Source: an uncultured Fluviicola sp. (GTDB lineage Bacteria; Bacteroidota; Bacteroidia; Flavobacteriales_D; Crocinitomicaceae). Taken from it: a stretch of 35,328 nucleotides of DNA. A program made the position numbers and the translations under genes. Of this stretch, positions 1-12,767 are shown piece by piece. The notes beneath the pieces are model-generated. The model was not told where the DNA came from, ran no database searches, and saw only the letters and a list, made by a program, of their open reading frames with translations. The stretch is from positions 1 to 35,328 of the forward strand of contig NZ_CABHOL010000005.1 of the NCBI RefSeq assembly GCF_902168135.1, written 5' to 3'. How positions within the stretch are numbered: the stretch's first letter is position 1; every line of letters begins with the position of its first letter.

Positions 1-281
1 TTTTGCTTTTCTACAATTTAGTGATTTGAAAACAATTAATTAAAATCGAATAAATCACTAATAAATAGATAGTTACTAAAAATTCTGTTCACAAATTAGC
101 GAACAATCGAATTCTAAAATTTGAAAAACTCTGAATTTTGGAATTCAACTCTTCCAGCCTCAAATCAGGCTTTAAAGACCAGTTTACAGTAGGAAGCAAT
201 TCCCCTTTATAAAGTATAACCCGGTGGTAAAATATGGCCTATTATGAATCAAATCCCGCGTCTACTTTGACTAAGATTTAG
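1..281. other. AT-rich intergenic leader, no gene seen
   Basis: This stretch before the first gene is AT-rich and holds no convincing open frame on either strand. The only structure I see is a weak hairpin, AGCCT at 156-160 pairing with AGGCT at 167-171. It may carry the tail end of upstream regulation, but nothing more can be supported. Confidence 0.6.
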
Positions 282-289
282 TATATTTG
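282..289 (+). promoter_or_regulatory. Bacteroidota -7 box for the E1 dehydrogenase gene
   Basis: The sequence TATATTTG matches the Bacteroidota -7 consensus TAnnTTTG at every fixed position. It ends 20 bases before the ATG at 310, giving a short leader. No good -33 TTG is seen at the usual spacing. Because the box overlaps the GTG at 289, that GTG is unlikely to be the start codon. Confidence 0.6.
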
Positions 290-309
290 TGCAACTTTAT
301 AACAAAGCT

Positions 310-2754
310 ATGGCATCACAAACACCCCAGGAAGAATTGATCGCAGTCGACTTTAACACCTTCAAATCGGAAGTATTGAAAGACTTTCGTTTGGCAAGTA
401 TCTCAAGAGAAGCATCTCTTTTAGGTCGAAAAGAAGTTCTTACCGGAAAAGCAAAGTTTGGAATTTTCGGTGACGGAAAAGAATTGGCACAAATTGCATT
501 GGCAAAACAGTTCAAAGACGGCGATTTCCGCTCAGGATATTACCGCGACCAAACCCTGATGATGGCCATTGACCAGTTAAATGTCCGCGAGTATTTCTCC
601 GGATTGTTCGGGCATACAGATGAAATCATTGAACCGCAATCCGCAGGAAGACAAATGGGTGGACACTTCTCCACGCGTAACCTGGACGAGAACGGGAACT
701 GGAAAGACCTGACAAAACAAAAGAATTCCTCTGCCGACATCTCTCCTACTGCCGGACAAATGCCGCGTTTATTGGGATTGGCACAAGCATCGAAAGTATA
801 TCGTGAACACCCGACATTGAAAGACCTGGAAGCATTCAAAAAATTCTCGAACGGAGGAAATGAAGTAGCTTTCGGAACAATCGGAGACGCATCCACTTCA
901 GAAGGACCTTTCTGGGAAACCATTAACGCCGCCGGAGTTTTACAGGTGCCAATGGTTATGTCGGTTTGGGATGACGGATACGGAATTTCAGTTCCACGCG
1001 AACACCAAACGACGAAAGGAAGTATTTCCGAAGCATTGAGCGGTATGCAGCGTACGGAAAACTCAAAGGGTTATGAAATTTTCGTGACAAAAGGATGGGA
1101 TTACGCGCACTTATGCGAGACTTACGAAAAAGCCGTTGAATTGGCTCGCAGAGAACACATTCCTGTATTGGTGCACGTGAAAGAAGTAAACCAGCCCCAG
1201 GGTCACTCTACTTCAGGATCTCACGAACGTTATAAAGATGCAGCACGCCTGCAATGGGAATCAGACTTTGATTGTATCAACAAATTCAAAGAATGGATCC
1301 TGAATTTTGACGCTGACGGTCAAAAATTAGCAACCGAAGAAGAATTAGCGCAAATCACAAAAGAAGCGAAAGAATACGTAAACGAACAAAAGAAAGAAGC
1401 GTGGACACTATTCACGCAAGATCTGAAACAGGACCTGGAACGTGCTGTTGGTGTTTTGGAAGTCCTGGCAAATGAAAGCACTAACGGAGTTTTCATTAAA
1501 CGCGAGATCGAAACGCTTCAAAAAACCATGAACCCGATCCGCAAGGATATTTTCAATACTGTTCGAAAAGTATTGCGCCTGATTCGTGATGAAAATACGC
1601 CATCCAGAACAGCTTTGATCGCATGGCTGAAACAGGAAACTGAAAACAATGCAGATCGTTACAGCAGTTATTTATACTCCAATTCGGAAAACAGTGCTTT
1701 AAAAGTAACAGCAGTTGCTCCGGCTTACGATGGAAGCGGACACATGGAAGACGGCCGTATCATTCTACGGGATAACTTCAAGGCAATCTTTGAAAAATAC
1801 CCGGAAGCATTGATTTTTGGGGAGGATGCAGGAAAGATCGGTGGTGTAAACCAATCTTTGGAAGGATTACAGGAACAATTCGGAACACTTCGTGTATCTG
1901 ATGTCGGGATTCGTGAATGTACCATTATCGGACAGGGAATCGGGATGGCCATGCGCGGATTGCGTCCAATTGCTGAAATCCAATACCTGGATTACCTGCT
2001 TTACGGAATCCAAATCATGTCGGATGATTTAGCAACTGTACAATACAGAACCAAAGGCGGACAAAAGGCACCGTTAATCATTTCAACACGCGGACACCGT
2101 TTGGAAGGAATCTGGCACAGTGGTTCACCAATGGGAATGATTATCAATTCCATTCGCGGAGTACATGTGTGTGTTCCGAGAAATATGACAAAAGCAGCAG
2201 GTTTCTACAATACCCTGATGCAGGCAGACGAACCGGCTTTGGTCATTGAACCACTAAACGGCTACCGCATCAAAGAACAGATGCCTACAAATATCGGAAG
2301 CTTCACTACTCCGCTGGGAATTCCTGAAATCGTTACCGAAGGAACAGATCTGACAATCGTTTCTTACGGTTCCACTTTCAATTTATGCGAAGCAGCATTA
2401 AAACCATTGACAGAAATGGGAATTTCAGTTGAATTGATCGATGCTCAAACCCTGCTTCCGTTTGATATCAACGGAATGGTTGCCGAGTCTTTGAAGAAAA
2501 CAAACCGTTTGATGATTGTTGACGAAGACGTAAGTTCAGGTGCAACAGCATTTTTGTTAGACCAGATTCTTGTTAAACAAGGCGGATACGTTCATTTGGA
2601 TTCTGCTCCGGTAACTTTGAGCGCGAAAGATCACAGGCCGGCTTACGGAACTGACGGTGATTATTTCTCCAAGCCGAGTATTGATGATATTGTTGAGGCA
2701 GCTTACGCTATTATGAACGAAGCAGATCCAACAGCTTTCCCTTCGATTTACTAA
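310..2754 (+). CDS. Fused 2-oxoacid dehydrogenase E1 component (alpha and beta halves)
   Basis: This enzyme is the thiamine diphosphate-dependent E1 of a 2-oxoacid dehydrogenase complex (pyruvate or branched-chain 2-oxoacids). It decarboxylates the oxoacid and passes the acyl group to the E2 lipoyl domain in the cytoplasm. The alpha half covers roughly residues 20-390, with the cofactor region GDAS (192-195) followed by WDDGYGIS (220-227). The beta half covers about 465-814, with an FGEDAG motif and a transketolase-like C-terminal domain. A helical linker of about 70 residues joins them. Single-chain alpha-beta E1 of about 800 residues is usual in Bacteroidota. I chose the ATG at 310 (814 residues) over a GTG at 289 because that GTG lies in the promoter box. 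The substrate cannot be fixed from sequence: no E2 or E3 gene is nearby. Confidence 0.93.
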   Translation: MASQTPQEELIAVDFNTFKSEVLKDFRLASISREASLLGRKEVLTGKAKFGIFGDGKELAQIALAKQFKDGDFRSGYYRDQTLMMAIDQLNVREYFSGLFGHTDEIIEPQSAGRQMGGHFSTRNLDENGNWKDLTKQKNSSADISPTAGQMPRLLGLAQASKVYREHPTLKDLEAFKKFSNGGNEVAFGTIGDASTSEGPFWETINAAGVLQVPMVMSVWDDGYGISVPREHQTTKGSISEALSGMQRTENSKGYEIFVTKGWDYAHLCETYEKAVELARREHIPVLVHVKEVNQPQGHSTSGSHERYKDAARLQWESDFDCINKFKEWILNFDADGQKLATEEELAQITKEAKEYVNEQKKEAWTLFTQDLKQDLERAVGVLEVLANESTNGVFIKREIETLQKTMNPIRKDIFNTVRKVLRLIRDENTPSRTALIAWLKQETENNADRYSSYLYSNSENSALKVTAVAPAYDGSGHMEDGRIILRDNFKAIFEKYPEALIFGEDAGKIGGVNQSLEGLQEQFGTLRVSDVGIRECTIIGQGIGMAMRGLRPIAEIQYLDYLLYGIQIMSDDLATVQYRTKGGQKAPLIISTRGHRLEGIWHSGSPMGMIINSIRGVHVCVPRNMTKAAGFYNTLMQADEPALVIEPLNGYRIKEQMPTNIGSFTTPLGIPEIVTEGTDLTIVSYGSTFNLCEAALKPLTEMGISVELIDAQTLLPFDINGMVAESLKKTNRLMIVDEDVSSGATAFLLDQILVKQGGYVHLDSAPVTLSAKDHRPAYGTDGDYFSKPSIDDIVEAAYAIMNEADPTAFPSIY

Positions 2755-2761
2755 TGAGGAT

Positions 2762-3163
2762 TTGAAAAAAGCTGCAGGCATATTGAGTATTGTTTTCGTA
2801 ATGGCCTTGCTTTGGAAGGATATTGCGGCATTCTCATGGAATGTCTGGTTTTATAACAACCAGGTCGAACTCGCAGCCAAATACTGTGTCAATAAGAAAA
2901 AACCGATGCTTCATTGTGACGGTAAATGTTATCTGGCAAAACAACTGAAGAAATTGGAACAGGAGGAAAAGAAAAATCAACCTGTTCCTAAAATGCCTCT
3001 AAAGCTGAAAGAAAACGTCTGGAATTCGGATTCACAGGTAATCACTGATTTTGAAGCAAATACTATCGAAATTCTTTCAGAAAAAACAACTGTCTTCTTT
3101 TACCAAAACACAGAACTGAATTCCTTTTCAGGTTCCGTCTTCCACCCACCCGCTGTCGGATAA
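2762..3163 (+). CDS. Small membrane-anchored protein with HC-x3-C motif
   Basis: This is a 133-residue protein with an N-terminal hydrophobic segment (about residues 5-24) and a metal-site-like pattern: Cys42, then HCDGKC with His51, Cys52 and Cys56, followed by a Lys/Glu-rich helix (59-77). I recognise this as a conserved Bacteroidota family of unknown function that tends to sit near metal-related genes; that link is from memory. The start is a TTG, seven bases after the stop of the E1 gene, so translation is probably coupled. The next possible start is the ATG at 2801, which would remove much of the signal/anchor. Its two downstream neighbours are also Cys- or His-rich envelope proteins. 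A role in copper or other metal handling is inference only. Confidence 0.7.
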   Translation: MKKAAGILSIVFVMALLWKDIAAFSWNVWFYNNQVELAAKYCVNKKKPMLHCDGKCYLAKQLKKLEQEEKKNQPVPKMPLKLKENVWNSDSQVITDFEANTIEILSEKTTVFFYQNTELNSFSGSVFHPPAVG

Positions 3164-3194
3164 TTTCATTCATAGACTCTGTAAGGTTTTTTGC

Positions 3195-3376
3195 CCGCAG
3201 ATCTCGCTGATTACGCAGATTTTTATTAAAAATAATGTGTCGAGCATATTTTCGTGAACAAAAACCTAAAAACCGTTACTCTTTCGAAAGTATCGTAATA
3301 GGAATTTTTATGAATTAATATCAGGGCATAGCTATATTCATTCACTATGGATCTGCGGAATCCGCGAGATCTGCGT
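3195..3376. repeat. Long-arm inverted repeat (CGCAGATCTCGC type)
   Basis: The left arm 3195-3220 and right arm 3351-3376 are reverse complements over 26 bases with three mismatches, separated by about 130 bases of AT-rich DNA. The arms are built around GCAGATCTCGC and CGCAGAT. It fills most of the gap between the genes ending at 3163 and starting at 3429. It looks like an interspersed Bacteroidota intergenic repeat rather than a simple terminator, since the loop is so long. Confidence 0.75.
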
Positions 3377-3428
3377 GAGAACAGTTTACTATGCTTATTT
3401 CTTAGAACAAATTAGTAATTACAGCACC

Positions 3429-4325
3429 ATGAAAAAAAGTTTCCTCTTTTTCGTGTGTCTTGTCGTGTACCAAACCGCGCTGTCATGTGACGTGTGCGGG
3501 TGCGGAGCTTTTAACTCTACACATGGTTTGGGAACATTGGCACAAGGCAATCGATCGAGCATCGGATTAAACTATCAATACCGCCTGTACAAAAGTGAGC
3601 ACCCGGAAGTTTTCGGAAACGGCATCGAACGCAGTACGGATTATTTTCAAAGATTGGACATCCTGGGACAATTGCGCATTTCCAAAAGATGGCAGTTACA
3701 GCTTTCCCTTCCTATTGGATTTAACAAACATATCGCCGATGACACCACTTCACAAAAGAACGGATTGGGAGACCCGACTCTGATGGTCAACTTCTTCCTG
3801 TTTGACAAGCAAGACAGCCTGCAGACCCGCCGTTTTCGCTGGATTGTTGGAGCAGGAATAAAAAGTCCGCTTGGAAAGTTCACTCATCCCGGGGATGCCG
3901 ATTTGTATTTGTATCCGGGAACCGGAAGTTTTGATCCGGTGTTTCAGAACTCGTTCTTCTTCCAAAAGAAAAAATGGAGTTTGCTTCAAACAGCACAATA
4001 TATTTTGCGAGGAGAGAACAAATACAACTACATTCCGGGGTCCTTGTTCAATGCAAGCCTTTTCGTACAGTACAAATTCAGGACCTGGGGTATTTACGCA
4101 GGAACACAATACTCCTGGAGCGGGGTCGACTACCTGAATCGAAAAGCGATCTCAAGCTCTCCCACTCAGGGACAGGTATTAAACGGAATCATCGGAGCAT
4201 CGGTACAATTCAATTCCTGGGTAGTACAGGGAAATTACCACATTCCGATAGCTCAAAACCTGGGAGATGGAAACTCCCACCAAAAAACAGCATTTAGTAT
4301 TTCACTTAATTATTTTTTCAATTAG
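3429..4325 (+). CDS. Secreted Cys-rich outer-membrane barrel-like protein
   Basis: This 298-residue protein has a clear signal peptide (MKKSFLFFVCLVVYQTALS) followed at once by CDVCGCG at the mature N-terminus. The rest is made of alternating amphipathic strands ending in aromatic residues (SLNYFFN), typical of an outer-membrane beta-barrel. Bacteroidota proteins of this kind are often annotated as transporter or MetA-pathway-of-phenol-degradation-like barrels. The N-terminal Cys cluster suggests metal binding at the cell surface or periplasmic face, which is inference. I chose the ATG at 3429 because the open frame upstream runs through the inverted repeat and would hide the signal peptide. 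The next gene starts two bases after its stop, so the two are an operon. Confidence 0.75.
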   Translation: MKKSFLFFVCLVVYQTALSCDVCGCGAFNSTHGLGTLAQGNRSSIGLNYQYRLYKSEHPEVFGNGIERSTDYFQRLDILGQLRISKRWQLQLSLPIGFNKHIADDTTSQKNGLGDPTLMVNFFLFDKQDSLQTRRFRWIVGAGIKSPLGKFTHPGDADLYLYPGTGSFDPVFQNSFFFQKKKWSLLQTAQYILRGENKYNYIPGSLFNASLFVQYKFRTWGIYAGTQYSWSGVDYLNRKAISSSPTQGQVLNGIIGASVQFNSWVVQGNYHIPIAQNLGDGNSHQKTAFSISLNYFFN

Positions 4326-4327
4326 AT

Positions 4328-4732
4328 ATGAAACCATTTTTTATTACAGCAATCCTTGTAAGCAGCATCTCTTTAACTGCTTGTAAAAAAGACAAATCAA
4401 CAGACGACAGTCATGGGCACGAAGATCATGCAACTGCAGTAATCACCATCACTTCACCAACTGAAAACGACACCATCCAGGGAAATTTTTCGGTAACGGG
4501 AACGATAGTTGGAACAGCTGAAATGCACGGATACCAGGTTACAGTAACCAATGCCCTGAATGATTCGATTATTTACCAGAACGACATTCATGACCATTTG
4601 GCTAATTTCACCATAAACCAGGCAGTAACACATTCGTACACAGCTTACACACCCCTGAAACTGGAAGTGGTTGCAGCTTTGGACCATGAAGGGAATACCG
4701 CATCAAAGATTGTTCATTTTGTGGTACATTAA
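4328..4732 (+). CDS. His-rich lipoprotein with Ig-like fold
   Basis: This is a 134-residue lipoprotein. The signal peptide ends in the lipobox LTAC with Cys19 as the acylation site, followed by a short Lys/Asp linker and a His/Asp-rich patch (HGHEDH) that could bind metal. The remainder resembles a single Ig-like/macroglobulin-type beta domain (ITITSPTENDTIQGNFSVTG) with further His residues (MHGY, DIHDH, LDHEG, HFVVH). It starts two bases after the barrel gene, so the two are probably co-transcribed and act together in the envelope. Metal capture or sensing is inference from composition and context. Confidence 0.7.
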   Translation: MKPFFITAILVSSISLTACKKDKSTDDSHGHEDHATAVITITSPTENDTIQGNFSVTGTIVGTAEMHGYQVTVTNALNDSIIYQNDIHDHLANFTINQAVTHSYTAYTPLKLEVVAALDHEGNTASKIVHFVVH

Positions 4733-4762
4733 TTAAAAACATCAGGTTACCAAGAATAATCT

Positions 4763-4842
4763 GTGGGGACGCGAAGCATCGCGTCCCTGCTGTTTGCAAA
4801 CAGTGGGGACGCGAAGCATCGCGTCCCTGCTGTTTGCAAACA
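4763..4842. repeat. Two tandem copies of a 40-bp double-palindrome element
   Basis: Units 4763-4802 and 4803-4842 are identical. Each holds a perfect hairpin, GGGACGCGA-AGCA-TCGCGTCCC (9-bp stem, 4-base loop), followed by the perfect palindrome TGTTTGCAAACA. The array lies between the lipoprotein stop (4732) and nth. The hairpin core CGCGA-N4-TCGCG is shared with the hairpins at 17642-17685 and 32528-32555. It may end transcription from the upstream operon, though no T-tract follows. Confidence 0.9.
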
Positions 4843-4867
4843 ACCATTCTAATTCCGATCATTTCCT

Positions 4868-4875
4868 TATTTTTG
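4868..4875 (+). promoter_or_regulatory. -7 box for nth
   Basis: TATTTTTG matches TAnnTTTG fully and ends only six bases before the nth ATG. If it is the real promoter, transcription would begin at or next to the start codon, giving a leaderless message. Confidence 0.5.
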
Positions 4876-4881
4876 CACGTC

Positions 4882-5526
4882 ATGACTAAAAAAGAAAAAG
4901 CAAAATACGTAATCGACGAACTGGAAAAGTGCTACCCCGAAACTCCGGTTCCATTGGACCATTGGGATGCATATACCCTACTGATCGCTGTTCTGCTTTC
5001 AGCACAATGTACAGACGAACGTGTAAATAAGATTACTCCGGCTTTATTCAAACGCGCATCACGCCCGCAGGACATGATCAAACTATCCGTGGAAGAAATC
5101 AGGGATATCATCAAACCATGCGGACTTTCACCACGGAAATCACAAGCTATTTACGACCTTTCACATTTGATTATCGATAAACACAACGGAGAAGTTCCGC
5201 AAACCTTTGAAGAATTGGAAGCACTACCCGGAGTCGGACATAAAACAGCTTCTGTTGTCATGTCGCAGGCATTCGGGGTTCCTGCATTTCCTGTAGACAC
5301 ACACATTCACCGTTTAATGACCCGCTGGGGGCTGACAAGCGGGAAAAACGTGGAAGAAACCGAGCGTGACGCCAAGAAATTATTCCCGCGTGAATTGTGG
5401 AACAAACTGCACCTGCAGATTATCTTTTACGGCAGAAGCCACTCTCCTGCCCGCTCCCCGAAAAGGGAAATTGATTACATCACCGCGACGATTGGAACCA
5501 AGAAGGCTTTGGAAGAACTGAAATAG
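4882..5526 (+). CDS. nth: Endonuclease III-like DNA glycosylase/AP lyase
   Basis: This base-excision repair enzyme removes oxidised pyrimidines and cuts at abasic sites. At 214 residues it has the family's usual length. The helix-hairpin-helix LPGVGHKTA carries the catalytic Lys121, and the conserved Asp139 lies in VDTHIHR. The C-terminal tail (YGRSHSPARSPKREIDYI) lacks the four cysteines that hold the [4Fe-4S] cluster in E. coli Nth; the only cysteines are 17, 43 and 80, so this is a cluster-less form. I chose the ATG at 4882 because the frame upstream runs through the hairpin repeat. The last 88 bases of the gene are duplicated in diverged form at 6377-6464, beyond the next gene, so the present 3' end may have been brought in by an insertion. 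Confidence 0.93.
   Translation: MTKKEKAKYVIDELEKCYPETPVPLDHWDAYTLLIAVLLSAQCTDERVNKITPALFKRASRPQDMIKLSVEEIRDIIKPCGLSPRKSQAIYDLSHLIIDKHNGEVPQTFEELEALPGVGHKTASVVMSQAFGVPAFPVDTHIHRLMTRWGLTSGKNVEETERDAKKLFPRELWNKLHLQIIFYGRSHSPARSPKREIDYITATIGTKKALEELK
5439..5471 (+). repeat. Left 33-bp direct repeat in nth (possible attachment site)
   Basis: These 33 bases within nth, coding for HSPARSPKREI, are identical to 6377-6409. Upstream of this point the two copies share no similarity, and downstream they diverge at scattered, mostly silent positions. The distance between the copies is 938 bases. This is the pattern left when an element enters a gene's 3' end and supplies a replacement tail. Confidence 0.8.
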
Positions 5527-5561
5527 TGTCAAAATTTCGCAAGAAGACTTAAAAAATCAAC

Positions 5562-5569
5562 TAATTTTG
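5562..5569 (+). promoter_or_regulatory. -7 box for the cassette lipoprotein
   Basis: TAATTTTG matches TAnnTTTG and ends 24 bases before the ATG at 5594, so the lipoprotein gene probably has its own promoter and does not depend on nth transcription. Confidence 0.55.
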
Positions 5570-5593
5570 CCCTAAAATTAAATTGTTATCCAA

Positions 5594-6346
5594 ATGAGGT
5601 TCTTTACCACCTTTATACTCATTTTTGCCCTTTTTTCATTAAATAGTTGTCAGAAGACAAAAAAAGAATCTTGTTCAAAGCCTCCTGAACCAGTAGGTTT
5701 ATCAAGCAACGGACCAGTCATTAAGGGATGGCCTCTTGTTTTAAATACAGTACATTATGGTACAGGTTATATATATAAATGGAGAGGTCCCAATGGTTGG
5801 GCAATGGAAACAACTGACAGTTGGGAAAATTACGAACCAAATAAAGTAACAATAGATTCTGCATCCATCAATAATTCAGGAAGATACTTTGTTGAAATCA
5901 TTCACGAAGGATGTGTAATTGAAGGAGGAAGTGTAGATGTTCAAATAATTGAACCTCCACTTCCACCATGTTCCGTTTCAAATAACTCAAGTACATCAAC
6001 CCTGGGTGGAGTTGGCGGAACAACTTATACATCAGTTTCCCACTCTGGAGGTATTTATTATTCTGTTTATGCGAGTGGCGGTATAAATCAAACCATCAAT
6101 TTCATTTTTAAAGGAACACCAAAGCCCGGAATGTACCTGGTAGATCAAGGATACTATCCTTCTGAATCTGATCACGCTGCAGTATATATTCAATCCGGAT
6201 TTTACGACTTTTTTATGGAATCATACCATACTGTTTATGTCAATGAGGTAAATGGAAAATTGCAGTTTTCATTTTGCAATTGTCATTTCAACAATCCCGT
6301 AGGCTCAACTGAAATCATTATTTCTGCAAAAGTCACCCTTCCATAA
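5594..6346 (+). CDS. Lipoprotein with Ig-like segment, carried between nth tails
   Basis: This is a 250-residue lipoprotein with a signal peptide ending in the lipobox LNSC (Cys19). Residues about 35-120 read like an Ig/PKD-type domain (YKWRGPNGW and SGRYFVEI, as in Bacteroidota adhesin-like repeats). The C-terminal part is Gly/Ser/Thr-rich with many aromatic residues and ends in a strand-rich segment (FSFCNCHFNNPVGSTEIIIS). I do not recognise a specific family. The gene is visibly more AT-rich than nth and lies between two copies of the nth 3' end, so it is the only cargo of a putative 938-bp insertion. A surface role is likely from the signal; the function is unknown. Confidence 0.75.
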   Translation: MRFFTTFILIFALFSLNSCQKTKKESCSKPPEPVGLSSNGPVIKGWPLVLNTVHYGTGYIYKWRGPNGWAMETTDSWENYEPNKVTIDSASINNSGRYFVEIIHEGCVIEGGSVDVQIIEPPLPPCSVSNNSSTSTLGGVGGTTYTSVSHSGGIYYSVYASGGINQTINFIFKGTPKPGMYLVDQGYYPSESDHAAVYIQSGFYDFFMESYHTVYVNEVNGKLQFSFCNCHFNNPVGSTEIIISAKVTLP

Positions 6347-6376
6347 ACGAGTTCAATTTCTCCTATGGCTCGATAA

Positions 6377-6464
6377 CCACTCTCCTGCCCGCTCCCCGAA
6401 AAGGGAAATCGATTACATCACAGCAGCGATAGGAACCAAGAAGGCATTGGAAGAATTGAAGTAA
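6377..6464 (+). pseudogene. Displaced nth 3' end (88-base remnant)
   Basis: This fragment aligns without gaps to nth 5439-5526 and still ends in a stop (TAA at 6462-6464, against TAG in nth). There are nine substitutions in 88 bases. Eight are silent, including the stop codon, and one changes Thr to Ala. Such silent divergence means the copy evolved as part of a working nth gene rather than decaying after duplication. It is most likely the original tail of the resident nth, cut off when the lipoprotein cassette entered. The first 33 bases (6377-6409) are identical to nth. Confidence 0.85.
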
Positions 6465-6469
6465 AAAGC

Positions 6470-8002
6470 TTAATAAGCAATTCGCACCCATTTATCCTTA
6501 TTACCCTTCGTAAACCGGTAACGAAGCAAATATTCATTCGTACTGAGTATAGTAACCGGCCAAAATAAGTCGTATTTCGCCGATTGCAAATGGATAAGCG
6601 GCTTATGAGTAATGACCTTTCCATCATCCAAATCCATTACACGTTCCGTCATAACTACCGACAAACCATTCGCAATTCCCCGGGAATCATCGTATTGATA
6701 GGATCCGGAGGAGAAATTCCTGATGAATTCTTTCGTATAGACATGTAATTCGTCATTCTGCAAAAAGAAAAACGCATTGGCATACAATTCATTCGAAGAG
6801 TAAGGAAGGATTTTGGTCCATTTCAACTCTCCGTCTGCCGAAATACAAAGGATGCATTTACTGTTCGTGATTTTCATGAAATTTGGTGAAGCAATCGTAT
6901 TTACAACATACAATGCACTTCCATCCGGCAAAAATTCAAAAAGTAAGACATTCGCATCTAAATTCAGGCGGGAAACTTTTGAATCATCAAAGTCCGGGTT
7001 GGTCATTCCTATCGAAGTAATCAAATCGGTTTTCTTCAACTGCACCAACTTCGTCTGCACTGATTTCCCCGATTCATCCCATTCCTGGTAGACATAACCG
7101 TATTTCGAATCTGATTCGGCAGTTTCTCCGGAAGATCTGTTTACCATAAAAATCCCTTTGTAAACAGCGAATTTCTTGTCAAAGCGAACTTTCACAGAAC
7201 TCACGTGAAGTCCTTCTTCAAGCTCATATTCCAGGGAAATATTCAGCGAATCTCCGGAAAAATTGGTCCGTAAAAAAGTGATGGCTCCTCTTTGCTGCTT
7301 TCCCTGCTCTTTTACCGGCATTTTTTGAATAATGGGAACACTCAGCACAGAATGTTCGTCAACCGAAATCTCGTTCAGATAGGGATTCAGACGGGATTCG
7401 TAAGCACTCAAATCCAACGAGGCTAAAGGCTCCAAATCGTAGTCAAATCCTTTAATGAGGGTCGGAATAATTTCAGTTGGATTACTTACAGTCATGTAAT
7501 TCAATCCTCTTCCGTGCGACATGTAAGAATCTCCCAAACACACATAAAAACCTTCTTCCAGGGTTTTGACAAACTTGACCTGTGTATTCAGCCGGTTTAT
7601 CATTCGCTGACTGACGATCTGCATTGTCCTAAGATCGCGTTTCACGATGACCGTGTATCCTTTTGCATTTCCTGCATGTCCGGGCAAGACGGTATTTGTG
7701 AAAACATAATCAATCTCGTAAATAAAATCTTCGTGGATAAAACAGTTTGTCGTACCGACCTTCTTAGCATCATCCGCTTGCGGACCGATCTTAAAAGTCT
7801 TCACTTTCGGTTTTTCAAAAGTCGTATCCAGCACCTGCAGTTCCGGGACCAATGTAGTATTCATTGAAATCAGTTTGCCTTCCCAAAACCCGACAATCCT
7901 GCCCGCGGATTCAGGCATATCAGAAGACACGCGAATTTCCTGAGAATAACTGGTTTGAAAGAATAATAGAAAGCTGAGGGCAGTAATTAGTTGATTGGTC
8001 AT
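6470..8002 (-). CDS. Secreted protein of unknown function, paralogue A
   Basis: This is a 510-residue protein beginning with a signal peptide (MTNQLITALSFLLFFQTSYS). It is similar along its length to the neighbour at 8121-9578, most clearly in the last third: ILPYSSNELYANAFFFLQND here against MLPYSSNGLYLNADFFVSDN there, each followed by a SGSY segment, ERVxDLxxG and a C-terminal RYxFT. The strand-rich pattern with repeated W/F and G-D turns could be a beta-propeller. There is no T9SS tail and no lipobox. I chose the ATG at 8002 because it starts the signal peptide and lies just after a -7 box; 19 upstream codons are open but have no signal character. Function unknown. Confidence 0.75.
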   Translation of the reverse strand: MTNQLITALSFLLFFQTSYSQEIRVSSDMPESAGRIVGFWEGKLISMNTTLVPELQVLDTTFEKPKVKTFKIGPQADDAKKVGTTNCFIHEDFIYEIDYVFTNTVLPGHAGNAKGYTVIVKRDLRTMQIVSQRMINRLNTQVKFVKTLEEGFYVCLGDSYMSHGRGLNYMTVSNPTEIIPTLIKGFDYDLEPLASLDLSAYESRLNPYLNEISVDEHSVLSVPIIQKMPVKEQGKQQRGAITFLRTNFSGDSLNISLEYELEEGLHVSSVKVRFDKKFAVYKGIFMVNRSSGETAESDSKYGYVYQEWDESGKSVQTKLVQLKKTDLITSIGMTNPDFDDSKVSRLNLDANVLLFEFLPDGSALYVVNTIASPNFMKITNSKCILCISADGELKWTKILPYSSNELYANAFFFLQNDELHVYTKEFIRNFSSGSYQYDDSRGIANGLSVVMTERVMDLDDGKVITHKPLIHLQSAKYDLFWPVTILSTNEYLLRYRFTKGNKDKWVRIAY

Positions 8003-8013
8003 ATCTTTTTTCA

Positions 8014-8043
8014 CAAAACTACATTTTTTTTGCAGGGAACAAA
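8014..8043 (-). promoter_or_regulatory. -33/-7 promoter for paralogue A
   Basis: On the minus strand TTTG (8043-8040) is followed after 18 bases by TAGTTTTG (8021-8014), a full match to TAnnTTTG. It lies 11 bases before the ATG at 8002. Confidence 0.6.
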
Positions 8044-8060
8044 ACCCGGTCCTTTCCAAA

Positions 8061-8093
8061 CTAAAACATCCAATCCCATAAAGAGATTGGATG
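8061..8093 (-). terminator. Intrinsic terminator after paralogue B
   Basis: On the minus strand a perfect 9-bp stem, CATCCAATC pairing with GATTGGATG (8093-8067, 9-base loop), is followed by TTTTAG. It lies 28 bases after the stop of the gene at 8121-9578 and just before the promoter of paralogue A, so the two paralogues are probably transcribed separately. Confidence 0.7.
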
Positions 8094-8120
8094 CCAATTT
8101 TGCGAATTTAATGCTAAATG

Positions 8121-9578
8121 CTAGAAATCGATCGTTAAAAACCGTTCCAGGTTTCTAGCCGTAAAAGAATACCTCACAATGGCTTTCCCATCTTTGTTGT
8201 AAATAACTTTTGTAGGCATAAATTTCTCGGATGGATTTGCGATGAACCTGTTTGACAATTCGTTCCCGTTCTCCAAATCAAAAACGCGCTCCGACAAACA
8301 CACCGTTTTGCCGCTGGCAGGTGAATTAATAATCGCGTATTTGTATGAACCGGATTCGAATGATTTTACAAAATCCTGGATCAGGAAGTGAAGCTGGTTA
8401 TCAGAAACGAAAAAATCAGCATTCAGGTACAACCCATTGGAAGAATAAGGAAGCATTTTTTGCCAAATCAACTTCCCGTCAGGTGAAAGCAGGAACATGA
8501 CTTTGCTGTTTTCCATTTCTCCAACGTATTTTCCCAAAGAAGTTGCAACAAAAAGAGCATTTCCATTCTCCAAAAAACGGATGTTTGAAAAAGCAGGATA
8601 GCGCATCCACTTATCAAAATCACACTTCTCAGGTTTTACTCCCATCACGGGAATATTCTTTTTCATATCCTCATCCATGAAATCATTGAAAACAAAATCA
8701 TGCTTTTCGTGATTAACAATAGAACCTTCATCATCCCATTTCAGGAATGTATAGGCAAATCCTTTGGCAAATCCGGGATTCGCTCCAACTTCTTTTGCAG
8801 TGATGAACAAACCGCTCAATTGACTGGTCTTAGCATTGTAATTAAATCGTGCAGCCTGCACTGTAAGACTTTCCGGAATTTCAGGACTGATTACTTTAGG
8901 TTCTTCCCCATCCGGGTTTGTAATGATAAAAAGCAAAGATGATTTTGCAGGAGGGGTTGATCCGAAGAACTTCGTTTTCACCTGCTCATCTACGGCAACA
9001 GTCATTAATACATTCAAATTATCGTCGATCTCAATAGATGTTAAGCGAACATTCACATCACTGAACATCTCATAATCCCTTTTCCAAACCAGGTTAAGAT
9101 CCAGGTCGATACGGTATAATTTCGTTTTTGAAAACAGGTACATTCCGCCCTCATCACATTTAGCATATTTGAAGGTATAATCTTTCAATTCCAGAGCGCT
9201 TCCACTCTGCTCCAATGTCTCCAGGCTTCTTTTTACAAGAGCGATGGAACCCGCAGTTTCGTAAACCTCATAAATAAATGAACCCTGAACAAGCACACGT
9301 TTGATGGAACCTCCGGCTTCACTGAACTCGACCTTGGGCTTGGTCGTTTTTTTCTTTTCTTCCGGATTTTTGGTATTTACGGCGATGTATTCAACCGAAA
9401 CCTTACCGGTAATCCCGTTGATATTGGGTTTACTATAAATCATCTTATCCTCGGTTGCACCGACAAACTCCTCCCGAACTTCGGGCAATTCTGCTGAAAA
9501 TTGGACTTCCTGAGCGTGACTTAGATGAGCAATGCCTGAAAAAAAGAACATCAGGCAAATGAAATAGGCGTTTTTCAT
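8121..9578 (-). CDS. Secreted protein of unknown function, paralogue B
   Basis: This is a 485-residue secreted protein with a signal peptide (MKNAYFICLMFFFSGIAHL, cleavage probably after SHA). It is a paralogue of the 510-residue protein downstream, sharing the segments LPYSSN, SERVFDLENG and the C-terminal RYSFTARN. Blocks such as LLSPDGKLIWQKMLPYSS look like blades of a beta-propeller in which a stored value is compared or reported, but no catalytic motif can be named. No T9SS sorting domain or lipobox is seen, so the periplasm is the likely place. It has its own promoter and terminator. Function unknown. Confidence 0.75.
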   Translation of the reverse strand: MKNAYFICLMFFFSGIAHLSHAQEVQFSAELPEVREEFVGATEDKMIYSKPNINGITGKVSVEYIAVNTKNPEEKKKTTKPKVEFSEAGGSIKRVLVQGSFIYEVYETAGSIALVKRSLETLEQSGSALELKDYTFKYAKCDEGGMYLFSKTKLYRIDLDLNLVWKRDYEMFSDVNVRLTSIEIDDNLNVLMTVAVDEQVKTKFFGSTPPAKSSLLFIITNPDGEEPKVISPEIPESLTVQAARFNYNAKTSQLSGLFITAKEVGANPGFAKGFAYTFLKWDDEGSIVNHEKHDFVFNDFMDEDMKKNIPVMGVKPEKCDFDKWMRYPAFSNIRFLENGNALFVATSLGKYVGEMENSKVMFLLSPDGKLIWQKMLPYSSNGLYLNADFFVSDNQLHFLIQDFVKSFESGSYKYAIINSPASGKTVCLSERVFDLENGNELSNRFIANPSEKFMPTKVIYNKDGKAIVRYSFTARNLERFLTIDF

Positions 9579-9592
9579 GTTATAATTTTGGG

Positions 9593-9600
9593 CAAACTTA
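9593..9600 (-). promoter_or_regulatory. -7 box for paralogue B
   Basis: On the minus strand TAAGTTTG matches TAnnTTTG and ends 14 bases before the ATG at 9578. No clear -33 element is seen. Confidence 0.5.
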
Positions 9601-9675
9601 CTTCAAATTATTGATTTAATAAGTTATCCGGGAGATAATTTCCTACCTTTAATGCGATCTTACAAAATCTATCAC

Positions 9676-9894
9676 ATGTCATTTCAAGCGTACCTGGACA
9701 ATATTCAGTCGAAAACCGGAAAAACAGCCGAAGATCTTCAAAAACTAGCTCAGGAAAAAGGATTTTTGAAGGATGGAAAATTAATGGCAGAAGTTAAGGC
9801 CGGACAGATTGTAAGCTGGCTGAAAGACGAATATAACCTGGGACACGGACACGCCATGGCCATCTATGCGTATTTCAAAGGGAAACGATCATGA
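9676..9894 (+). CDS. DUF4287 domain protein
   Basis: This 72-residue protein is almost entirely a DUF4287 domain. The pattern MSFQAYLDNIQSKTGKT, a KGF segment, a KAGQIVSWLKDEYNLGHGHA core and a closing AIYAYFKG are typical of that small family, which has no known function. The ATG at 9676 is chosen because the family starts with MSFQ; the ATG at 9652 sits directly on a -7-like box (TACCTTTA at 9644-9651). Its stop overlaps the cupin start by four bases (ATGA), so the two proteins are translationally coupled. Confidence 0.85.
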   Translation: MSFQAYLDNIQSKTGKTAEDLQKLAQEKGFLKDGKLMAEVKAGQIVSWLKDEYNLGHGHAMAIYAYFKGKRS

Positions 9895-10385
9895 GTTCAA
9901 AAGAAATTCAAATCACCAATAAAGAAGGGGCCGAAACCATTGCGATCGGAGCTTCCGCATACAGTATTTTACTCAACAGCCAGCGCTCGGAAGGACAGTT
10001 GGCAATTATAGAAATGCTGGTTCCGCCAAACGGTGGCCCTATCCCGCATGAGCACAAAGGATTCCAGGAATGCTTTTACGTGCTGGAAGGAGAAGTCGAA
10101 ATGATTACCAAAGAAAGCAGGATCCCGGCCAAGCAAGGCGATTTGGTACACATTCCTTTAGACGGACCTGTTCATTGCTTTAAGAACACCACTTCAGTAA
10201 ACGCCCGTCTGCTCTGCATCGTTGCACCCGCCGGATTAGACCAATTCTTTGAAGAGGCCGGTCGAAAAATTCCTCCGGGAACATTGCCCGAACCTGTTCC
10301 TCCGACTCCCGAACAAATTGCATTTGCAAACCAAACTGCTGAAAAGTACGGTCAAAAATTATACCCGAAGGATTATTTGGATTAA
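9891..10385 (+). CDS. Cupin-domain protein
   Basis: This 164-residue protein has one cupin barrel. Motif 1 is PIPHEHKGFQECFYVLEGEV with metal ligands His53, His55 and Glu60. Motif 2 is GDLVHIPLDGPVHCFKN with His95, so the metal site looks complete. A Pro-rich C-terminal tail (PPGTLPEPVPPTPEQ) is common in cupins annotated near quercetinase-like or sugar-binding proteins. It is likely a cytoplasmic dioxygenase or isomerase-like enzyme, but the substrate cannot be deduced. It overlaps the DUF4287 gene by four bases and is followed after three bases by the next gene, giving a three-gene operon. Confidence 0.85.
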   Translation: MSSKEIQITNKEGAETIAIGASAYSILLNSQRSEGQLAIIEMLVPPNGGPIPHEHKGFQECFYVLEGEVEMITKESRIPAKQGDLVHIPLDGPVHCFKNTTSVNARLLCIVAPAGLDQFFEEAGRKIPPGTLPEPVPPTPEQIAFANQTAEKYGQKLYPKDYLD

Positions 10386-10388
10386 ATC

Positions 10389-11033
10389 ATGAAACAGTTC
10401 CGGTACATACTGGTAATTACCGCTTTTTTCCTGGGATTTTCAAAAACAGCATCTGCAGATTCGATTCCCAAACAAGGAAGAATGGCTCTTCAGATTGCAC
10501 CGCTTTCCTTATTGGATTTCTACAATGGTTCCTGTTACAAATTGGGAACCGAGGTCCGATTATCAAAAAGCCTTTATTTGTCGTTGGATGCGGGAAGTTA
10601 TTTCCCAAACTTTAACAGCTTAAAAAACGTGAAAGGCGGCAACCTGGATTTCCGGATCAAATACCGCTTACCCAGTTCAAACTCCCTGATTTCAATGGGT
10701 TATTTCTACAAAAAACAGTCGTTTGAGTATCACGATGCATACGAAGAACAGCCTGACGTCCCGATAACGGTTTACACCCGGAAAAACATTCACTGCTTTA
10801 ATATCAATTATGAATATCGTGTGGCGCAGCTTTTCAGAAAAGGATATATAGACGTTTTTGCAGGATTAGGCCTGCGCTTCAGAAATGTGAAATCTTCTTT
10901 TGAAACACATCATGATTTTGACAAGCTGGTTGAAGGCGGAGATTCACAAACCCTTTATTTTGTATTAATCCCGGGAGAAACTACCTGGCTGAATCTAAAC
11001 TTCGGCCTCCGCTTCGGCTTCTATTTGTTTTAG
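10389..11033 (+). CDS. Secreted outer-membrane barrel-like protein
   Basis: This is a 214-residue protein with a signal peptide (cleavage probably after ASA at residue 23). The mature part consists of alternating amphipathic strands and ends in NFGLRFGFYLF, the aromatic C-terminus expected of an outer-membrane beta-barrel. The length and pattern resemble DUF3575-type or similar small barrels, but no family can be named with confidence. It starts three bases after the cupin stop, so it is part of the DUF4287-cupin operon. Confidence 0.7.
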   Translation: MKQFRYILVITAFFLGFSKTASADSIPKQGRMALQIAPLSLLDFYNGSCYKLGTEVRLSKSLYLSLDAGSYFPNFNSLKNVKGGNLDFRIKYRLPSSNSLISMGYFYKKQSFEYHDAYEEQPDVPITVYTRKNIHCFNINYEYRVAQLFRKGYIDVFAGLGLRFRNVKSSFETHHDFDKLVEGGDSQTLYFVLIPGETTWLNLNFGLRFGFYLF

Positions 11034-11059
11034 TTCCCACTATAAAATCAGCAAGATTT

Positions 11060-11087
11060 AATTCGTAATTCGTAATTCGTAATTCGT
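11060..11087 (+). repeat. Heptanucleotide tandem repeat (AATTCGT x4) at a promoter
   Basis: Four perfect copies of AATTCGT run directly into TAATTTTA (11087-11094), a 7-of-8 match to the -7 consensus, and then the ATG at 11099. Slippage of this repeat would move any upstream control element by seven bases per unit. The same 13 bases AATTCGTAATTTT occur before ribD at 14278-14290. Confidence 0.85.
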
Positions 11088-11098
11088 AATTTTATAAA

Positions 11099-11410
11099 AT
11101 GATTTCAGTACTAGTCACTTACCAGGTAAAACAAGCATTTGCAGAGCAGAACAAAGCTAATATTCAGCAGTTTTTAAGCGATTTCGAACAATTGGACGCT
11201 TCGAAATTTAACTATAGCGTATCTGTAAAAGAGGATGGTGTTTCATTTGTCCACTTCTCTCAATATGCGGATGAAAATATACAACAAGAGCTTTTAAACG
11301 TACCATCCTTCAAAGCTTTCCAGGAAATGCGCGATGCCAGTGGATTAAACGGTTCGCATAAAGTAGAAATCCTCCAATTAGTTGGCTCAGAGGGAAATTA
11401 TCAATTATAA
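11099..11410 (+). CDS. Small ABM-like (ferredoxin-fold) protein
   Basis: This 103-residue protein begins MISVLVTYQVK and has the beta-alpha-beta-beta pattern of the antibiotic biosynthesis monooxygenase/dimeric alpha-beta barrel superfamily: a strand, a helix (AEQNKANIQQFLSDFEQL), a strand (FNYSVSVKEDGVSFVHF) and a helix with PSFKAFQEMRD. No catalytic residue set can be pointed out, and members range from haem-degrading enzymes to proteins of unknown role. It stands alone behind a repeat-bearing promoter. Superfamily assignment is probable; function unknown. Confidence 0.65.
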   Translation: MISVLVTYQVKQAFAEQNKANIQQFLSDFEQLDASKFNYSVSVKEDGVSFVHFSQYADENIQQELLNVPSFKAFQEMRDASGLNGSHKVEILQLVGSEGNYQL

Positions 11411-11489
11411 ATTACTGAATTATCACGGAACTTTCAGCCACGGCTGACTCAGTCTCCTTGTTGATAATTGATAATTCCGTCATTGATAC

Positions 11490-12767
11490 TTATTTCAAAG
11501 CTTTCTTCAACGCCTCCGGGTCTAATTGCTTTTCCCAGCGGGCTACTACAATTGTCGCAACAGCATTCCCGATCAGATTTGTTAAGGCTCGGCATTCCGA
11601 CATGAATTTGTCTACACCTAAAATTAAGGTCATACCGGCAATGGGTACATCAGGAACTACCGTTAAAGTCGCAGCTAAAGTCACAAAACCTGCACCTGAA
11701 ACTCCTGCTGCACCTTTCGAACTCAGCATCGCCACCAAAAGTAAGGTTGCCTGCTGACTGAAAGACAAGTCCACATTACAGGCTTGTGCAATAAAAAGCG
11801 CTGCCAAAGTCATATAAATATTGGTTCCATCAAGATTAAAGGAATATCCGGTAGGAACTACCAATCCGACTACTTGGTTCGAACAACCTGCTTTTTCCAG
11901 CTTTTTCATTAAGGAAGGTAAGGCAGATTCAGATGAACTTGTACCGAGAACCAATAATAATTCGTCCTTTAAATAACGAAGCAGTTTTAAGATATTGAAA
12001 CCGTTATGCCTAGCAACCAACCCCAGAATCACTACCACAAAGAAACCTGCAGTAAGGTAGAAGGTTCCTACTAAAAAAAATAAATTCTGAAGTGTCTCAA
12101 CACCATATTTCCCTATTGTAAAAGCCATTGCACCGAAAGCACCGATTGGAGCCAGCTTCATTAAAATATCTACAATCTTAAAAATCGGGTGTGTTAATGC
12201 CTGGAAGAAATCCAATACCGGTTTGCTTTTATCAGCTGTTAAAGACAATGCTACACCAAACATAATTGCAGCAAACAACACCTGTAAAATGTTCTCACCA
12301 GTGAGTGAGCTCATAAAAGTTTTAGGGATAATGTTCAGGATGAAGTTAGAAAAGGAATTTCCATGAGCAGCTGAAACATATTCAGAAACATCCTTTTGAT
12401 CCAAGGTACTCGGATCAATATTCAGTCCATTTCCCGGTTGAACCACATTACTCACAATCATTCCGATAATCAGTGCCAATGTAGAAAATGTCAGAAAATA
12501 AATAAATGCCTTTCCGGTGATTCGTCCGACTTTCTTTAGGTCATTCATCGAAGCAATACCTACTGTAATCGTAATAAAAATTACAGGAGCGATGATCATC
12601 TTGATCAGATTGATAAATCCATCTCCAAGTGGTTTCATTTTTTCTCCAAGCTCCGGGTAAAAATACCCCAGTGATACTCCAATTACTATTGCAACCAATA
12701 CTTGAAAATACAGGGCTCTATACCACGGTTTCGGTTTTGCGGGTTTCGCGTTCGGATCTATTTCCAT
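11490..12767 (-). CDS. dctA: Dicarboxylate/glutamate:cation symporter (DctA/GltP type)
   Basis: This inner-membrane carrier belongs to the dicarboxylate/amino acid:cation symporter family and imports C4-dicarboxylates or acidic amino acids with protons or sodium. At 425 residues it has the usual length. Seen in order are the first membrane helices, the Ser-rich re-entrant loop [12 protein letters not shown] (about 274-285), the NLDGTNIYM signature (311-319) in helix 7, the second re-entrant loop ([14 protein letters not shown]) and helix 8 with [19 protein letters not shown]. The RALTNLIGN segment is typical of DctA, which is why I prefer it to GltP. It lies about 70 bases downstream of the MFS gene on the same strand, a likely operon of two organic-acid transporters. 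Confidence 0.9.

Follow-up and report, generated by a model that had tools for sequence, protein, structure and literature searches.

The window analysed here, the whole of contig C5 (35,328 bases) of a draft assembly from the genus Fluviicola (G000), carries the 3′ end of its nth gene twice, once in place and once beyond a single lipoprotein-like gene, and sequence comparison suggests that the downstream copy is best read as the resident nth end, pushed aside by an insert that brought an nth end of its own. The explanation favoured for this arrangement, with somewhat more confidence than doubt, is homologous single-crossover integration of a small circularised fragment from a related strain, leaving a duplication of the target. 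The G000 assembly comprises 56 contigs and 4.38 Mb with a contamination estimate of 0.91, repeat scanning covered approximately 27% of it (1.17 Mb), and the genomes with which it was compared were species-level representatives only.

The nth gene (4882..5526, positive strand) encodes a 214-amino acid endonuclease III-type HhH-GPD protein, assigned from its open reading frame, its translation and matches to PF00730 and PF00633. A repeat search of window positions 1-12000 returned 5439-5525 and 6377-6463 as the largest direct-repeat family, ungapped, with 91% identity and a spacing of 938 bases. Including the last base of the stop codon, the repeat covers 88 positions (5439-5526 versus 6377-6464) and contains nine differences, at offsets 33, 45, 48, 49, 54, 69, 79, 84 and 87, corresponding to the codon pairs ATT/ATC, ACC/ACA, GCG/GCA, ACG/GCG (Thr/Ala), ATT/ATA, GCT/GCA, CTG/TTG, AAA/AAG and TAG/TAA. 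Eight of the nine differences are silent and one exchanges Thr for Ala; the sequence-only reading had described the repeat in these terms, and its coordinates, spacing and differences proved correct to the base. When 5380-5526 was used as a DNA query against G000, two places only were matched (E ≤ 0.001), the second copy with an E value of 1.2e-28, and no third copy of the nth end was found in this genome at E 0.001. In the repeat alignment, the first 33 bases (5439..5471, positive strand) are identical in both copies; were the nine differences placed at random over the 88 positions, these 33 would be free of differences with a probability of 0.011. Judging from this alignment, the left crossover most probably lies inside 5439-5471, and a position further left is also possible.

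The closest relative at the nth locus, G002, provides an empty site. Its nth is 95.4% identical over the first 458 bases and its neighbour gene 95.7% identical, its nth end runs straight into the counterpart of the 6470-8002 gene, and the lipoprotein gene is absent from the site. At all nine variable sites the G002 base is that of the right copy. Over the last 55 bases, the left tail (5472..5526, positive strand) differs from G002 at 12 positions versus 3 in the right copy, and 12 or more differences in 55 are expected at 4.6% divergence with a probability of 6e-6. The empty site, the G002-like right tail and the divergent left tail together suggest that the right copy is the resident end and that the left tail and the lipoprotein gene make up the insert; the left tail is thus probably donor-derived. 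An empty site with the right-type tail directly at the 6470-8002 gene and without the lipoprotein gene had been predicted from the window alone, as had the displacement of the resident tail, and both are borne out by G002, at nine of nine variable sites in the case of the tail. The proposal that the insert carried its own nth 3′ end is likewise supported by the divergence of the left tail from G002 and by the reading frame of nth, which is open through to its stop with its terminal portion forming part of the insert. The G002 nth itself contains an NN gap and therefore cannot be judged as intact, and its true nth end gave no repeat match in its tail.

The displaced resident 3′ end (6377..6464, positive strand), now without its gene, matches the nth end of G002 and runs on into what comes after that gene there. 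Next to it lies the resident neighbour gene (6470..8002, negative strand), which encodes a 510-amino acid protein of no Pfam family and adjoins nth in G002 and likewise, as a gene of the same type, in G012; the G008 homologue is 50% identical. The 30 bases from the lipoprotein stop to the displaced tail (6347..6376) end at the junction 6376/6377. They were considered as decayed nth sequence and rejected as such, as their similarity to the nth stretch before the repeat was not significant (p 0.07 anchored, 0.49 local).

The inserted gene (5594..6346, positive strand) encodes a 250-amino acid protein of no Pfam family with what we take to be a lipobox, LNSC. Homologues lie directly after nth in relatives G013 (48%) and G001 (39%), so that the insert looks like a relative's ordinary nth end with the next gene; in both genomes the lipoprotein homologue is followed by a frame resembling window 9652-9894 (DUF4287), as judged by eye. 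In G012, a homologue (35%) stands between DUF4287-like and cupin-like genes (by eye), and G002 and G008 carry divergent homologues (27-30%) after a cupin-like gene. Strong matches to the lipoprotein family were found in 6 of 14 genomes of the genus, G000 included, all on the nth contig and within approximately 5 kb of nth; some match at E 0.001 was present in 11 of the 14, those that are not strong being weak, partial and located in long proteins. The family occupies varying positions of the nth-DUF4287-cupin neighbourhood from one genome of the genus to another (the window, L041, L035, L033, L045 and L036), as if locally mobile. The donor itself was not found among 12 relatives, from each of which the left tail 5472-5526 differs by 10 to 17 in 55 bases. 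The nearest is G008 with 10 differences; the two relatives with the lipoprotein gene after nth, G013 and G001, have 14 and 17. As the left tail is not closest to G013 or G001, a simple donor story is weakened.

A similar scar is present at a second gene of the same genome, indicating that such scars are not specific to nth. It surfaced when 643 genes of G000, G008 and G049 were scanned as a control; the other hits, so far as they were looked at, were repetitive proteins or tandem paralogues. The end of a gene named dnaE from its sequence, by eye (contig C17 of G000, L121), at 1274-1342 is repeated at 1785-1853, with 69 bases and five differences, all silent including that in the stop codon, and the repeats enclose one 106-amino acid reverse frame without a Pfam match above the cut-off. 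G002 again has the empty site: there, the gene end is joined directly to the stretch found beyond the right copy in G000. The left copy has the G002 base at three neighbouring sites of the five that vary and the right copy has it at the stop codon, which would place an allele switch within the 16 identical bases between them; the remaining one, site 24, contradicts the simple switch pattern, and at three further positions both copies depart from G002. An apparent allele switch within the repeat is seen at dnaE with one contrary site in five, and nth is compatible with a switch in its first 33 bases.

Repeated nth ends with different cargo, as anticipated in the sequence-only reading, also occur elsewhere. 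An exact repeat of the final 26 bases of nth lies beyond a gene of the 6470-8002 type in G008. In G049, which belongs to another family of the same order and is assembled as a single contig, 126 bases of the nth end are repeated at 92% identity 1265-1389 bases past the stop; the second copy aligns with a one-base gap and is identical over a run of 50 bases or more, and the cargo between the repeats is one reverse gene with AAA_14 and DUF4143 domains. These two genomes were the only ones with strong nth-end repeats among 53 relatives' nth loci, a set that includes loci with little downstream sequence; in a scan of 59 relatives' nth loci, 2 ended with such a repeat.

From what is directly visible, namely the empty site, the G002-like right copy, the order of nth and lipoprotein gene in two relatives and the similar scars elsewhere, we infer the donor, the circularisation, the single crossover, and the route and time of transfer. 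A short chromosome fragment of a related strain, consisting of the nth 3′ end and the lipoprotein gene that follows it, would have entered the lineage, and its ends would have been joined into a small circle closed at what is now 6376/6377. One homologous crossover in the nth end would then have inserted the whole circle, giving the order nth with the donor's last codons, lipoprotein gene, resident nth end and resident neighbour. The apparent allele switch inside the dnaE repeat supports such a crossover with a circle, since one-sided illegitimate joining would not give a switch. The 33-base core at nth is short for homologous recombination, which counts against single crossover, and a literature search on DNA uptake in the genus Fluviicola returned no paper. 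Homology-facilitated illegitimate recombination, in which a linear donor fragment with nth homology on its left is joined non-homologously just inside the resident nth end and leaves most of the resident tail in place, is the less probable reading and on balance unlikely. It accounts for an insert with homology on one side and a junction showing none on the other, makes a circle unnecessary for the window if the left crossover lay left of 5439, and is the process that the relevant part of PMC5361080 proposes for immunity genes that end up downstream of a newly arrived effector-immunity module. However, it predicts a wholly resident right copy, and at dnaE three sites are G002-like in the left copy but not in the right; nor does it predict that the nth repeat should begin with an identical stretch (p 0.011). 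Such events, according to the sections of PMC3240628 that deal with them, are moreover usually accompanied by the loss of a segment of roughly the insert's length. On the strength of the apparent dnaE switch and the precedent described in those sections, single crossover is ranked above homology-facilitated illegitimate recombination.

Restoration of the target gene's 3′ end is known from integrative elements, to which the sequence-only reading had likened the nth locus. The two are alike in having a restored target end on one side and a displaced end on the other; they differ in that no recombinase is seen here, that the crossover intervals share no common stretch and that more than one gene is targeted. 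A Pfam scan of 29 of the window's proteins, the smallest frames excepted, found no recombinase family. Crossovers at a dedicated attachment site should all fall at one point. In nth positions, the crossover intervals are 558-590 (window, with G002 as a stand-in for the resident), 620-645 (G008) and approximately 578-635 (G049); the G049 interval overlaps both others, yet the three do not intersect at any position. The scar at dnaE, the lack of a recombinase among the 29 window proteins scanned and the lack of a common crossover interval make a dedicated site-specific element unlikely, and this part of the sequence-only reading is not supported; its alternative, recombination with a related strain, fits better with a lipoprotein homologue directly after nth in two relatives. 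A cassette without its own recombinase, using a fixed attachment site at the 3′ end of nth and mobilised by an integrase acting in trans, would explain the architecture of a restored gene end, a displaced resident end and single cargo genes, the differing cargo of the three nth cases, and the greater frequency of repeats at nth ends than at the other gene ends scanned (2 of 59 nth loci). It is nonetheless improbable on the same three counts: the intervals without a common point, the like scar at dnaE and 29 window proteins without a Pfam recombinase. In a literature search on the nth end as an attachment site, the best 10 of 1,830 papers made no mention of the end of nth, and the main text of PMC8547433 contains neither term. 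Tandem duplication of nth and its neighbour in this lineage, followed by deletion down to a tail remnant, would dispense with foreign DNA but is very improbable, with a left tail differing from G002 at 12 of 55 positions against an nth body 95.4% identical, and given that G002 has a single tail there and lacks the lipoprotein gene at this place. An assembly chimera of two strains, suggested by the draft state of the assembly with its 56 contigs and contamination estimate of 0.91, would need a shared stretch at 6376/6377, where none is evident, and would leave the like anatomy at dnaE and in other assemblies, including the single contig of G049, to be explained; it is likewise very improbable.

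The present case belongs with several known kinds of insertion. The sections of PMC3240628 describing an E. coli conjugation assay report that 56 of 60 Lac- clones gave a PCR product diagnostic of a duplicated target end, that 109-950 bp were duplicated in the 14 clones sequenced and that one-sided illegitimate events apparently accounted for 4 of the 60, and its authors there explain these clones by a molecule that was partly degraded, recircularised and then integrated through a single crossover. That system resembles the nth locus, as read here, in that copies of the target end flank the insert and that one crossover by homology is paired with one end-joining junction; it differs in using an engineered plasmid donor and a lacZ target, whereas the case described here is natural, with a donor that was seemingly a related strain and with two ends that differ almost only silently. 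Insertion with long target duplication is described for H. pylori (Nobusato et al. 2000, as presented in passages of PMC3031569 and PMC1643837), where genes inserted with long direct target repeats were suggested to represent a mode of gene mobility. Here too, long target repeats flank the inserts (88 bp at nth and 69 bp at dnaE), with G002 empty at both. The H. pylori cases as presented there are often tied to restriction-modification genes, whereas single genes of other kinds are involved here, and one copy is seemingly the donor's allele; the cargo found comprises a lipoprotein-like protein, other proteins without a Pfam family and an AAA_14/DUF4143 ATPase, with no restriction-modification genes. 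For T6SS effector-immunity loci, part of PMC5361080 proposes that old genes are displaced when a new module arrives, with conserved sequence upstream serving as its anchor, and a portion of PMC2884548 attributes small variable segments of E. coli largely to illegitimate recombination, an origin that PMC3240628, where it comments on these segments, doubts in the case of homology-facilitated illegitimate recombination. Both resemble the nth locus, as far as these passages describe them, in that a new 3′ part and the next gene arrive at a conserved upstream anchor and the old part is displaced downstream; in those systems the exchange changes the effector, whereas the new end here encodes nearly the same Nth protein. 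What is special here is the combination of housekeeping targets, a new end differing almost only silently, and recurrence with empty sites.

These scars may mark a recurring way of gaining single genes without a recombinase. With empty sites in a relative of approximately 95% identity, they are natural examples of single-gene entry, apparently recombinase-free, that leaves the target unbroken. Their signature, a single foreign gene followed by a silently diverged second copy of the preceding gene's end, is easily searchable, which makes the share of this route in gene gain, and its rules, measurable. They also warn that a restored gene end alone is no proof of a site-specific element. A more far-reaching and distinctly unlikely idea is that conserved gene ends such as those of nth and dnaE could be the homology sockets of a loosely defined group of single-gene cassettes that lack a recombinase; the direct repeats left by each insertion would allow cargo and gene end to loop out as a circle and, by ordinary homologous recombination, to enter that gene end again in another strain or species.

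A long gene-end duplication of this kind is rare. A scan of 2.49 Mb in 95 pieces, with 2131 genes of at least 100 amino acids, gave 27 direct-repeat pairs within its limits, three of them gene-end repeats with an orphan second copy (the window nth, G000 dnaE and G049 nth); pieces overlapped by 4 kb in G012, nth loci were deliberately over-sampled, the window had been chosen for its repeat, and the 26-bp repeat of G008 falls below the threshold. No gene-start repeats were found in the 2131 genes scanned, which also speaks for the single-crossover reading. A second scan, for exact downstream repeats of at least 17 bases of a gene's last 60 and thus blind to the window's own case, was positive for 9 of 2052 genes. 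These include nth of G008, nth of G049 and dnaE; the other six comprise L126 (a tandem paralogue), L130 (a repetitive protein) and four hits that by eye resemble dispersed repeats or related proteins, so that dnaE alone among the seven non-nth positives resembles a scar by eye. The 2 of 59 relatives' nth ends hint that nth is used more often than genes are on average. The wider surveys of nth ends were blind to short repeats such as the 26 bp of G008. A search with the nth tail across the family matched 221 of 240 genomes, with two matches only in G000 and G094; an A2 profile across the order matched 237 of 245 genomes, with two or more matches in G000, G049, G094 and G314; and across the class 136 of 396 genomes were matched, G000 alone twice. 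G094 and G314 were rejected as tail repeats, their matches being two separate copies in long open frames; the two nth-like copies of G094 (C1:17260 and 52176) have opposite orientation and equal scores and are perhaps an assembly artefact. As no further long nth-end repeat appeared at the level of family, order or class, nth is not a busy site. Among viral contigs one relative was found, L090, in which (1-400) a phage-like gene run stands approximately 180 bases after the nth stop at the contig edge.

Several other repeats were observed in the sequences scanned. In contig C9 of G000 (62040-62414), 66-base repeats (94%) flank a small open frame and are palindromic rather than gene ends, as judged by eye, and in contig C17 (142583-143376) two nested repeat pairs (164 bp at 91% and 71 bp at 80%) surround a short stretch. 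The tandem paralogues of L126 (contig C1 of G008, 17-3561) are 99% identical in their last 148 bases versus approximately 82% overall, perhaps reflecting gene conversion of their ends. Within the window, a 25-base inverted repeat pair (92%) with its arms 130 bases apart lies at 3196-3375, and a 40-base unit with inverted-repeat arms occurs twice in tandem at 4758-4837, just upstream of nth.
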